Below, in pieces: positions 41,230-55,372 of a stretch of DNA of 64,000 nt. A model generated the notes under the pieces. That model saw only the letters and a list, made by a program, of their open reading frames with translations, was not told the origin of the DNA and did no database searches. Every line of letters starts with the position of its first letter. The first letter of the stretch is position 1. Source of the stretch: Prochlorococcus marinus XMU1408 (GTDB lineage: Bacteria; Cyanobacteriota; Cyanobacteriia; PCC-6307; Cyanobiaceae); the NCBI RefSeq assembly GCF_003208055.1, contig NZ_QJUE01000005.1:186001-250000 (forward strand), given 5' to 3'. The translations under genes and the position numbers were made by a program.

Positions 41230-41530
41230 AATTAATCTATATATTTAAAATCAGTATACATAATGTTATCGAATATTATTTTTGAGATAAGTAAATCCAA
41301 ATCGTATTGGTTAAAAATTCATATAAAATTTCACAGTCTTTCAATTGATAAGCTGAGACTAGGTTAAAATTATTTAATCTATAAAAAATAATTACTACAA
41401 AAAGTAGTCAATTTTCATTAAATAAGAAGTTAAGCTTATATCATGAAAAAGTAGCTATTAAAAAGTTTTTTTTATCAGTCAAATTTATCGTTTATTAAAT
41501 AATTTAGAGAGGTGCTTCTAAAGAAAGTGT

Positions 41531-41631
41531 TATTTTAAATAACTCAATCCCCTATAAATAAACTTGATTTGAGTCTTAGAAACAAAGCGACAATATACAA
41601 ATGATGTTCCATTGAAATACATATTGACCAT
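41531..41631 (-). pseudogene. Micro-ORF copy A, frameshifted
   Basis: From ATG 41631 it starts MVNMYFNGTSFVYCRFV, clearly homologous to the intact 33-aa frame at 54898-54999. One base is missing near 41580, so the frame switches and ends at a TGA (41545-41547; 28 aa). If the base is restored the remainder reads YRGLSYLK to TAA 41531, matching YRGLKYLR of copy B. The upstream promoter and leader are well conserved, so either decay is recent or the RNA part matters by itself. Confidence 0.6.
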
Positions 41632-41727
41632 GATGCAGTGTGCCTAAGAGTGCTCAAGTCCCCGTCCTGTGGCTTGAATCGAACTGCGGTCTACAAAAGC
41701 AGATCGGACGATTGAGTCGCAAAACTA
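41632..41727 (-). ncRNA. Structured leader/sRNA, copy A
   Basis: Expected transcript region from a consensus promoter at 41734-41762 to the micro-ORF. Core 41652-41713 is nearly identical to 55023-55085 (62 versus 63 nt, four or five differences). Read on the minus strand, it folds on paper as CGUCC, then a hairpin GAUCUGC/GCAGUUC, then YUCAAG/CUUGAG with GGACG in the loop. GGACG can pair with the upstream CGUCC to make a pseudoknot. A G-U wobble keeps the second stem in copy A. It recalls pseudoknot leaders before short peptides in picocyanobacteria, but the sequence does not match any I can recite. Confidence 0.55.
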
Positions 41728-41733
41728 CAATTA

Positions 41734-41762
41734 TTTATAGTTTTTATACTCAACAATGTCAA
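41734..41762 (-). promoter_or_regulatory. Consensus sigma70-type promoter, copy A
   Basis: On the minus strand, TTGACA (41757-41762), a 17-bp spacer, then TATAAA (41734-41739). Copy B has the same boxes and spacing at 55108-55136. The start of transcription is expected near 41727. It is unusually close to consensus for this genome and lies in the gap after the ABC-F gene stop. Confidence 0.8.
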
Positions 41763-41783: not shown

Positions 41784-43742
41784 CTATTTTTCTGAACCAA
41801 TAGAAGAATTAGATTGCTCCTCTGCTGTCTCGGATAACTCACTCAGTTCGATCCATCGATCTTCATACTCGTGAATAGATTCAATAAGTGCTGCTAACTG
41901 ATGACTAATTTCACTGATATCCATATCAGTAGCAGTTATTTTTTTTTCTAAATATATTTTCTGCTCCTCTAGTAAAGGTAGCTTCACATCTAAGTCTTTA
42001 AGTTCTCTAGCTTCTTTGAAAATCAATCGCCTCTTTTGATTTTTAGGCTTTAATTTTATTTGTTTCCTATTCTCATTGCCTGAATCATTAGCGATCTTAG
42101 CTTGTTCTTTTTTTTCATTATTTCTCTCCTCTATAATTTTTTGTTCTAGAAATCTCGAGTAATTACCTTCATATCTTCTCAAATTAGCATTTTCAAAATT
42201 AAAAATCCTATCAACAGTTCGATCAAGAAAATATCTATCATGTGATACGACTACTACACAACCTTTAAAATCCTCAAGAAAATCTTCGAGTACGCTTAAT
42301 GTTTGTATATCTAAATCATTAGTCGGCTCATCAAGCAACAATACATTGGGAGCTTTTATGAGCATTTTACATAGAGCAAGTCTTCTTTTCTCTCCTCCTG
42401 AAAGCTTAGATAGAGGACTATGTTGCTGACTTGGTGGAAAAAGGAATTTTTCTAAAAGCTGTGATGCTGTAATTTGTTTCCCTCCATGATCAATTCGTGA
42501 TGCAGACTCCTCCACAAATTCAATAACCTTACGATTTAATCCTCTCCCTTGATTTAAATCATTTGTATGTTGATCAAGATAACCAATATGGACTGTTTCT
42601 CCAAGTTTAATTTTCCCACTTGTAGGCAATCTTTTACCCGCAATTAGATCTAAAAGAGTCGATTTACCACTTCCATTTGGACCAATAACACCTACTCGAT
42701 CCTCCGGACTAAAGCTATAAGTAAAATCATTTAAGAGATCTAAATTTTTCTCTTTAACATTTATAGAAAGTCCTAGACCTTCAGCCTCAATTGCTATCTT
42801 TCCAATTCTTCTATTCAATGAATTCATTTCTAATTTTGCTTTGATTTGAATTTTTGGTTTCGCTTGCATTTCAGCAATCCTTTGAATACGTGCTTTTTGT
42901 TTTGTGCTCCTTGCTTTAGGACCTTGTCTTAACCAAGCTAATTCTTTTCTTAAAACACCCTGAAATTTTTTCTGTGAAGATGCCTCTGATTGCTCGTTTT
43001 CAACTTTCTGTTGAAGAAATTCACGGTAATTTCCTGAATAATTACGAGCTTCGCCATTATTAATTTCGATCATCCGAGTTGTAATACGATCAAGAACATA
43101 CCTGTCGTGTGTAATCAATACAAGAGCACCCTCATAATGGTCTAACCAGTTTTGAAGCCATTCAACTGCAGATGCATCTAAGTGATTAGTAGGTTCGTCA
43201 AGAAGTAAAACATCTGGTTGAGAGACAAGTGCTGCGGCAAGCCCCACTCTTTTGCGATAACCACCAGAAAGATCTTTTACTGGTTTATCTAAATCTTTTA
43301 TTCCTAGTCTTCTCAAAACATCTTGGCATTGTTGTTCTAAGTTCCAAGCCCCAGCGGCATCCATAAGTTCACTTGCTTGACCAAACCTTTTCAACAGAGT
43401 TTCATCTTTCGGATGTTCAGCTATTTTCCTACTTAGCTTGCTGAAATTGAGCAATAATTTTCTTTTTTCTCCGCACCCTTCAAGGACTTCCTCCAAAATA
43501 CTTTTTTCACTACCGTAACTCGTTTCTTGACCTACTAAAGCTATCCGCAAAGATGATAAACAGTTCCTTTTACCCTCCATCAAAGGTTCTACACCAGCAA
43601 GAACCCTCAAAAGTGTTGACTTGCCAGATCCATTTGGACCAATCAAACCAAGTCTTTCTCCTTTATTAATATGAAGGTCTAGATTTTTAAAAAGATTTTT
43701 TATACCAAAGTCTGTTGAAGCATTTACAAGACTAATCAACAC
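41784..43742 (-). CDS. ABC-F family ATPase (Uup/EttA-like)
   Basis: A 652-residue protein with no membrane domain. Two ABC domains each carry Walker A (GPNGSGKST) and signature/Walker B (LSGGYRKRVGLAAAL with LLLDEPTNHLD, and LSGGEKRRLALCKML with LLLDEPTNDLD). They are joined by a charged linker rich in Arg/Lys (QGPKARSTKQKARIQRI). The C-terminal ~80 residues are a coiled coil like that of Uup. ABC-F proteins act on the ribosome. The start may be TTG 43742 or the ATG-less frame start just after. Confidence 0.9.
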   Translation of the reverse strand: MLISLVNASTDFGIKNLFKNLDLHINKGERLGLIGPNGSGKSTLLRVLAGVEPLMEGKRNCLSSLRIALVGQETSYGSEKSILEEVLEGCGEKRKLLLNFSKLSRKIAEHPKDETLLKRFGQASELMDAAGAWNLEQQCQDVLRRLGIKDLDKPVKDLSGGYRKRVGLAAALVSQPDVLLLDEPTNHLDASAVEWLQNWLDHYEGALVLITHDRYVLDRITTRMIEINNGEARNYSGNYREFLQQKVENEQSEASSQKKFQGVLRKELAWLRQGPKARSTKQKARIQRIAEMQAKPKIQIKAKLEMNSLNRRIGKIAIEAEGLGLSINVKEKNLDLLNDFTYSFSPEDRVGVIGPNGSGKSTLLDLIAGKRLPTSGKIKLGETVHIGYLDQHTNDLNQGRGLNRKVIEFVEESASRIDHGGKQITASQLLEKFLFPPSQQHSPLSKLSGGEKRRLALCKMLIKAPNVLLLDEPTNDLDIQTLSVLEDFLEDFKGCVVVVSHDRYFLDRTVDRIFNFENANLRRYEGNYSRFLEQKIIEERNNEKKEQAKIANDSGNENRKQIKLKPKNQKRRLIFKEARELKDLDVKLPLLEEQKIYLEKKITATDMDISEISHQLAALIESIHEYEDRWIELSELSETAEEQSNSSIGSEK

Positions 43743-54897: not shown

Positions 54898-54999
54898 TTA
54901 TCTTAAATATTTCAAACCTCTATAAGTAAGAGTTATTGATGCCTTTTCTACATGAGTGCAATAAACAAAAGCTTTTCCATTAAAAAACATATTTACCAT
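54898..54999 (-). CDS. Micro-ORF copy B (33 aa)
   Basis: Intact frame from ATG 54999: MVNMFFNGKAFVYCTHVEKA, then SITLTYRGLKYLR. The YRG.xY motif slightly recalls the short cyanobacterial DUF4278 pattern, but that is weak. It follows a conserved leader and a consensus promoter on the same strand; AAGGGAG lies about 13 nt before the ATG. The homologous frame at 41.5 kb is frameshifted. Confidence 0.5.
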   Translation of the reverse strand: MVNMFFNGKAFVYCTHVEKASITLTYRGLKYLR

Positions 55000-55101
55000 G
55001 ATGATGCAGTCTCCCTTCAAACGCTCAAGTCCCCGTCCTATGGCTTGAGTCGAACTGCGGTCTACAAGTAGCAGATCGGACGATTAGGTAGCCATGGCTA
55101 C
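55000..55101 (-). ncRNA. Structured leader/sRNA, copy B
   Basis: Second copy of the leader. Core 55023-55085 has the same two hairpins and possible pseudoknot as copy A; here the second stem is a perfect CUCAAG/CUUGAG. An extra palindrome GTAGCCATGGCTAC (55088-55101) at the 5' end of the expected RNA is missing in copy A. It could be a regulatory leader acting on the micropeptide or a free small RNA. Confidence 0.55.
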
Positions 55102-55159: not shown

Positions 55160-55372
55160 TCAACAGCACTCACAATCACTTTCACCTTCGGATGATGGGT
55201 TTTCGAATGCATCGGCAATATCTCTAAGCATTAAAGCTATAAACTCTGGAGGGCATTGAAGCTCATTAATATGGGAAGCGCATTGTTGAGCTATTCCCTG
55301 CATAGCTGGAAGAATTATTTTATCCACTTGCTCCTGAGTTGGCTTCCAAGTTGCTTGGCACTTATCACCCAT
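55160..55372 (-). CDS. Hypothetical protein (70 aa)
   Basis: Starts MGDKCQATWKPTQEQVDKII and ends SDCECC. Five cysteines, three clustered at the C-terminus (CECC), are noteworthy and may bind metal. The helical centre is IALMLRDIADAFENP. The start is ATG 55372. Function unknown. The downstream minus-strand unit is leader copy B. Confidence 0.6.
   Translation of the reverse strand: MGDKCQATWKPTQEQVDKIILPAMQGIAQQCASHINELQCPPEFIALMLRDIADAFENPSSEGESDCECC

Follow-up and report, generated by a model that had tools for sequence, protein, structure and literature searches.

Two 33-codon genes behind Glutamine-II riboswitches in Prochlorococcus marinus XMU1408, most likely Yfr6 genes

The window, that is, the whole 64,000-nucleotide stretch of the Prochlorococcus marinus XMU1408 genome that was analysed, carries on its minus strand two units with a single order of elements: a TTGACA-N17-TATAAA promoter, a leader and a micro-ORF whose product begins with MVNM. 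These units, here named copy A and copy B, were delimited by direct reading of the sequence (Table 1), and both the minus-strand promoters and the MVNM-starting micro-ORFs are as described in a first-pass annotation of the same DNA. A simple promoter scan of the window listed neither promoter, because its pattern demands a T at base six of the second hexamer, which leaves TATAAA outside. Transcript starts were predicted 6-7 nt past TATAAA, and from the predicted base the ORF starts at 97-98 nt in copy A and at 103 nt in copy B.

Table 1. Elements of the two units, their neighbours and other Glutamine-II elements mentioned in the text.
Feature	Position	Strand	Basis or remark
Copy A unit	41762-41530	-	Sequence reading
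Copy A promoter, TTGACA-N17-TATAAA	41734..41762	-	Direct reading; orthologues with intact ORF share the layout
Copy A degenerate palindrome, GTAGTTTTGCGACT	41715..41728	-	Sequence reading, locus comparison; predicted start at or near first G
Copy A aptamer	41653..41713	-	RF01704, 55.2 bits, model 1-60 of 60; pseudoknot 41706-41710 with 41663-41667
Copy A linker to start codon, without GGAG ribosome site	41632..41652	-	Sequence reading
Copy A micropeptide ORF, 33 aa, intact	41530..41631	-	Reads MVNMYFNGTSFVYCRFVSKTQIKFIYRGLSYLK-stop; family under purifying selection
Copy B unit	55136-54898	-	Sequence reading
Copy B promoter, TTGACA-N17-TATAAA	55108..55136	-	Direct reading
Copy B palindrome, GTAGCCATGGCTAC	55088..55101	-	GTA-N8-TAC, NtcA-type; begins at predicted first transcribed base
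Copy B aptamer	55024..55085	-	RF01704, 57.9 bits; pseudoknot 55078-55082 with 55034-55038
Copy B linker with GGGAG ribosome site	55000..55023	-	Direct reading
Copy B micropeptide ORF, 33 aa, intact	54898..54999	-	Reads MVNMFFNGKAFVYCTHVEKASITLTYRGLKYLR-stop
ABC-F-like ATPase gene, preceding copy A	41784-43742		Pfam ABC_tran twice, ABC_tran_Xtn
70-aa ORF, directly upstream of copy B	55160-55372	-	Cysteine-rich end; no Pfam match
Glutamine-II element L006 (contig C2)	382790-382847		GGAAGUAGG sub-form before a 54-aa ORF without YRG motif
Viral aptamer-peptide unit, L172	1222-1476	-	RF01704 + YRG ORF
Viral aptamer-peptide unit, L173	2249-2503	+	RF01704 + YRG ORF
Viral aptamer-peptide unit, L268	2664-2915	-	RF01704 + YRG ORF

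In a tblastn search with the neighbouring genes, the ABC-F protein was detected in 32 of 106 fetched MVNM-type loci, a set that includes duplicates of single loci, and the 70-aa ORF in 11 of them.

Both leaders exceed, over the full length of the model, the gathering threshold (33 bits) of the Rfam family RF01704, with covariance-model E-values over the 64 kb window of 1.3e-10 for copy A and 2.1e-11 for copy B, far above chance. This family is also called Glutamine-II, the Downstream-peptide motif or the type 2 glutamine riboswitch. No other riboswitch family was above threshold in the window (Rfam). The first-pass annotation had guessed at a Downstream-peptide or glutamine pseudoknot riboswitch leader of a picocyanobacterium, which is exactly this family; by its own rule the match to a known RNA removes the novelty of the leader. 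Its descriptions of nearly identical leader cores (Rfam spans of 61 and 62 nt), each with two hairpins and a CGUCC/GGACG pseudoknot, were also borne out, and the GGAAGUAGG signature that it could not find belongs to a different sub-form of RF01704, which is present elsewhere in the same genome (L006, GGAAGTAGGGAACGGG). Passages of PMC6316151 and PMC6698751 report that relatives of these aptamers bind L-glutamine, and the former ties the type 2 riboswitch, which activates expression, to DUF4278 genes in marine picocyanobacteria. Judged by the match to the model, the duplicated leader belongs to a known class of glutamine-sensing riboswitches and precedes a 33-aa peptide gene, a real finding that is already explained.

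Structural covariation was analysed in 34 diverse aptamers, comprising a family-wide sample, both window copies and three copies with a damaged ORF. With the pseudoknot included, 94.7% of 645 cells were paired and 13 of 19 pairs had changes on both sides; the covariation score of 0.437 exceeded that of shuffles (0.215, sd 0.013) and of slid structures (at most 0.111). The covariation proposed earlier as a check on a functional RNA was seen across the family in both stems (6/6 pairs of the first and 6/8 of the second changed on both sides) and in one of the five pseudoknot pairs, three others being invariant. The covarying pseudoknot pair (columns 20/64) is never broken, with 25 rows having U-A, eight C-G and one U-G; this variation is the difference between the common CGUUC/GAACG form and the CGUCC/GGACG form of both window copies. 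The first stem is weak at its two end pairs, which are open in 14 and 11 rows, and copy A has an A-C mismatch at the outer of these.

The micro-ORF of copy A had been read as frameshifted, and it had been proposed from this that the RNA is kept while the peptide is lost. The frameshift was ruled out by an intact reading frame and a gap-free alignment: each copy has 33 open codons, and the two peptides are identical at 20 of 33 positions (61%), so that the proposal rested on a misreading. Between copies A and B, dN was 0.287 and dS 1.318. Summed over all pairs of 69 distinct intact ORFs, after ten damaged rows (the nine listed below and L168) had been dropped, pN/pS was 0.254; against the rest it was 0.346 for copy A and 0.351 for copy B. 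The MVNM peptide family is under selection at the protein level.

Damage to the ORF or a lost start was found in nine of the 106 loci (L046, L048, L054, L055, L056, L057, L058, L059 and L062), that of L058 judged from the genus peptide search alone; L168 has a stop like that of L048. RF01704 was above threshold in three of the nine (L046, L048 and L057) and below it in six, and the aptamer tends to disappear together with the ORF. A regulatory RNA as the product itself, the first proposal for Yfr6, would make the peptide dispensable and would agree with an aptamer better conserved than its linker and with the three damaged copies that retain it; passages of PMC1242208 and PMC2518516, early descriptions, took Yfr6 as a possible dual-function RNA. 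We regard this as very improbable, however, because the ORFs of both window copies are intact, the synonymous bias of the ORFs is strong, and the six other damaged relatives lack an above-threshold aptamer. Moreover, in 195 of 196 loci the aptamer lies 16-24 nt ahead of the start codon of an ORF, as called with a loose filter (a YRG-like motif within 60 residues). The preferred reading, a peptide gene behind a riboswitch, disposes of the false lead that the RNA is kept in the absence of its peptide, and links both 33-aa genes with a known glutamine switch.

The start-site palindrome of copy B has the form GTA-N8-TAC, which we take to be the NtcA binding pattern, and GTAGCNNNNGCTAC occurs in the window at this site only (0.01 expected). 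The palindrome was surveyed in 196 distinct aptamer loci recovered by a near-consensus pattern, without the GGAAGUAGG sub-form and without loci lying close to a contig end. GTA-N8-TAC was found upstream in 169 of them, compared with 63 of 3920 shuffles (20 per locus), and started 17-22 nt ahead of the CGT(T/C)C of the aptamer; the 169 loci are related, not independent events, and hold 66 distinct site sequences. Since the palindrome begins at about +1 of the predicted transcript, its position fits repression. NtcA would be the protein on the copy B palindrome. According to passages of PMC6316151, gifA and gifB are controlled by NtcA, and the promoter of the related MED4 gene PMM1846 contains an NtcA motif.

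Alternatively, the palindrome could be no NtcA site but a transcript-stabilising RNA hairpin at the 5' end. In favour of this, it starts where transcription is predicted to begin, another palindrome takes its place in five loci of genus g35 (L023, L026, L034, L187 and L201), and L079 still has a short stem around a reduced gap. When a DNA dyad is read from the opposite strand, T.G becomes C.A, and the two should be equally frequent, whereas an RNA stem tolerates T.G only. At the variable pair 5-10 of the 66 distinct palindromes, T.G and C.A occurred ten times each, although an RNA stem should favour T.G, and this equality favours a symmetric DNA site. The outer GTA/TAC is invariant in the 66 sites, but these were picked by that very pattern. 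We consider the hairpin unlikely and retain the reading of a putative NtcA-type DNA site.

The replacement palindrome of the g35 loci is GTTGA..TCAAC in four of the five. Thirteen Glutamine-II loci of the window's genus (L002, L005, L089, L234, L239, L240, L243-L247, L252 and L253) were without any start-site palindrome, and lie before peptides of the 46-, 47- or 56-aa type.

No shared anti-ribosome-site helix was found by folding of 70 leaders or by duplex tests on 50 representatives. Among the 70 leaders, predicted accessibility of the ribosome site was equal with and without the bound fold (0.493 vs 0.496), and real linkers were more open than shuffled ones in the free state (0.493 vs 0.433). 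The start codon became more accessible with the bound fold (0.409 to 0.477), and did likewise with shuffled linkers (0.354 to 0.419). Copies A (0.47 to 0.68) and B (0.42 to 0.60) shifted the expected way, which in two sequences establishes nothing. Pairing of the linker with the aptamer core was no better for own linkers (-5.40 kcal/mol) than for swapped ones (-5.56 kcal/mol; 50 representatives), and for this reason a switch helix ACUGC/GCAGU was rejected as a family-wide mechanism; it is present in copies A and B and, as GCUGC, in the majority of MVNM loci of the larger group, but the majority of orthologues in the window's genus lack it (GAGUCUGUAUC, GAGCUAGUACC). Other candidates were discarded as well: a GACUC/GAGUC helix fits some orthologues only, and the aptamer core (mean z -0.37, SE 0.17, against shuffled linkers) and the 5' pseudoknot strand (mean z -0.80, SE 0.16, duplexes near -3 kcal/mol) were too weak as anti-ribosome-site strands in z-score tests on 50 non-independent representatives. 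The relevant passage of PMC6698751 goes no further than calling competition with an occluding structure likely.

Across the 72 loci of the MVNM class, the GTA-N8-TAC palindrome is present in 67 and imperfect in five, and the GGAG ribosome site is present in 66 and missing in six. Copy A is the sole locus without both, and is therefore probably weaker or differently controlled. The same double lack would fit a decaying pseudogene, with an ORF that is open through recency only, and seven relatives with a broken ORF (L054-L059 and L062) lie at the same position beside the ABC-F gene. Such decay seems improbable, however, since it is not unusual in the class to lack one feature or the other, the open ORF of copy A has the same pN/pS against the others (0.35) as that of copy B, its aptamer still scores 55.2 bits and its promoter is intact. 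In a tree of 70 distinct aptamer-plus-ORF sequences, whose bootstrap had not yet settled, copy A and ten further loci from the genus formed a group (support 97/77), while copy B fell in a separate group of three (100/96); from these separate groups the two copies look like old paralogues.

Copies beyond the two in the window, which the first-pass annotation had suggested looking for, were found: the 1.8 Mb genome has six RF01704 matches, two within the window and L006 among the others, and at least one copy was present in all 41 genomes of the genus searched. In the family, RF01704 was found in 284 of 400 sampled genomes, and some near-complete genomes had a single match or none; a passage of the review PMC6316151 describes the element as always multicopy. 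The MVNM peptide was detected in 23 of the 41 genus genomes (E 0.01 or better). A relative is encoded at 193 places of the named genome collection, and of the best 80 of these, 79 were titled Prochlorococcus and one uncultured Synechococcaceae, with no title naming MED4 or SS120.

In one scan of viral contigs no viral homologue of the MVNM peptide was confirmed, and annotated phage records gave no match to the copy B aptamer, two viral leaders or one viral peptide. Of the 17 IMG/VR contigs matched by Glutamine-II patterns, three have a YRG micropeptide ORF behind an RF01704 aptamer. The unit of L172 is antisense and lies beside terminase and portal genes, while for L173 no clear phage gene was recognised among four proteins tried; both retain GTA-N8-TAC. 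T4-like cyanophages are mentioned as having a glutamine riboswitch in passages of PMC9964418 and PMC9602691, which describe no peptide cassette there.

The other Glutamine-II peptides of the 196-locus survey mostly carry two or three YRG-like repeats. No Pfam match to DUF4278 (PF14105) was obtained for the MVNM peptides (P0001, P0002 or an orthologue), P0001 having a sub-threshold Tudor_4 match only. Among six other Glutamine-II peptides, three passed the DUF4278 cut-off of 25.3 bits (37.5-38.9 bits) and three were below it (23.9, 22.2 and 13.8 bits, the last two viral). In profile comparisons the C-terminal 16 residues of the MVNM peptides alone aligned with two-repeat peptides (probability 91), and the probability was 31 against longer peptides; the first half, MVNM(Y/F)FNG, may be a diverged first repeat. 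A sequence search of the PDB gave no structure for one DUF4278-type peptide.

Passages of PMC6316151 place DUF4278 on the N-terminal part of IF17, a glutamine synthetase inactivating factor, hence the proposed role of the YRG micropeptide in nitrogen assimilation; they also state that this part is dispensable for IF17 function, which weakens the analogy. In the same passages the regulation of glutamine synthetase in marine picocyanobacteria is called unclear, and it is suggested that such genes may encode IF-like inhibitors. Copies A and B, which form a natural pair with unlike palindromes and ribosome sites, provide concrete test cases for this idea.

Yfr6 of strains MED4 and SS120 is described in passages of PMC1242208 as a 244-nt RNA in which a frame of 33 aa opens at nucleotide 97 and which becomes less abundant when nitrogen is depleted; a figure legend there notes that its signal is inconstant, also in the nitrogen-free condition. 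Passages of PMC2518516 add that the peptide is widely conserved among Prochlorococcus strains, with NATL1A in the alignment, and one of PMC2864571 that yfr6 ORFs have Downstream-peptide RNAs as their 5' UTRs, beginning about 20 nt past the transcript start. Both window genes have this layout, with 33 aa, about 97 nt from a predicted, unmapped start, and an RF01704 leader. From the length and position of the frame (97-98 and 103 nt) and the leader we infer that they are most likely Yfr6 genes. The published neighbourhood of MED4 Yfr6 contains trnS and nrdJ; a tRNA scan of 20 loci of the larger group gave one tRNA-Met and no tRNA-Ser, and the ORF listing of one such locus (L138) contained no nrdJ-sized ORF.

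We think it highly likely that copies A and B are two paralogous Yfr6-type genes for a small nitrogen-controlled peptide, in which strong promoter, palindrome, Glutamine-II riboswitch and 33-codon ORF would be under NtcA and glutamine control. NtcA bound to the start-site palindrome would keep the genes from being transcribed when nitrogen is short; a drop in Yfr6 RNA on nitrogen depletion is published for relatives. When nitrogen is plentiful the mRNA would be made, and glutamine, for which binding and activation are likewise published for relatives, would close the aptamer pseudoknot; the ribosome site would presumably be released and the peptide translated. Its C-terminal YRG repeat resembles those of proteins with DUF4278, a domain of IF17, so that restraint of nitrogen assimilation would be its likeliest role.

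A broader scheme is more speculative, and we hold it to be rather doubtful: a picocyanobacterial regulon with several YRG-repeat micropeptides in each genome, under NtcA repression at +1 and activation by glutamine through Glutamine-II, would brake nitrogen assimilation instead of the classical inactivating factors, with the Yfr6 peptides as its most diverged arm, and phages would have taken the cassette of palindrome, aptamer and peptide to retune host nitrogen flow. The duplicated unit is a known kind of element and most likely an already named gene, whose interest is in the function of peptide and switch and not in a new RNA.

Compared with gifB/IF17 of Synechocystis and PMM1846 of MED4, the window genes share a glutamine riboswitch before a small protein with DUF4278-type sequence. 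They differ from gifB in the aptamer class (type 2 here, type 1 in gifB) and from PMM1846 in the size of the product (33 aa here, 7 kDa there); the peptide here fails the Pfam DUF4278 model and is at most a putative inhibitor of glutamine synthetase. With respect to RF01704 nothing essential differs, since both copies are full-length matches above the curated threshold and share the pseudoknot, apart from its less common CGUCC/GGACG form, the stems, the short ORF downstream and the host group. Yfr6 of MED4 and SS120 differs in that two copies are present here, one of them, copy A, with a weakened ribosome site and start-site palindrome; the 33-aa frame at about nucleotide 97, the RF01704 element about 20 nt past the start (predicted here) and the Prochlorococcus host are shared.
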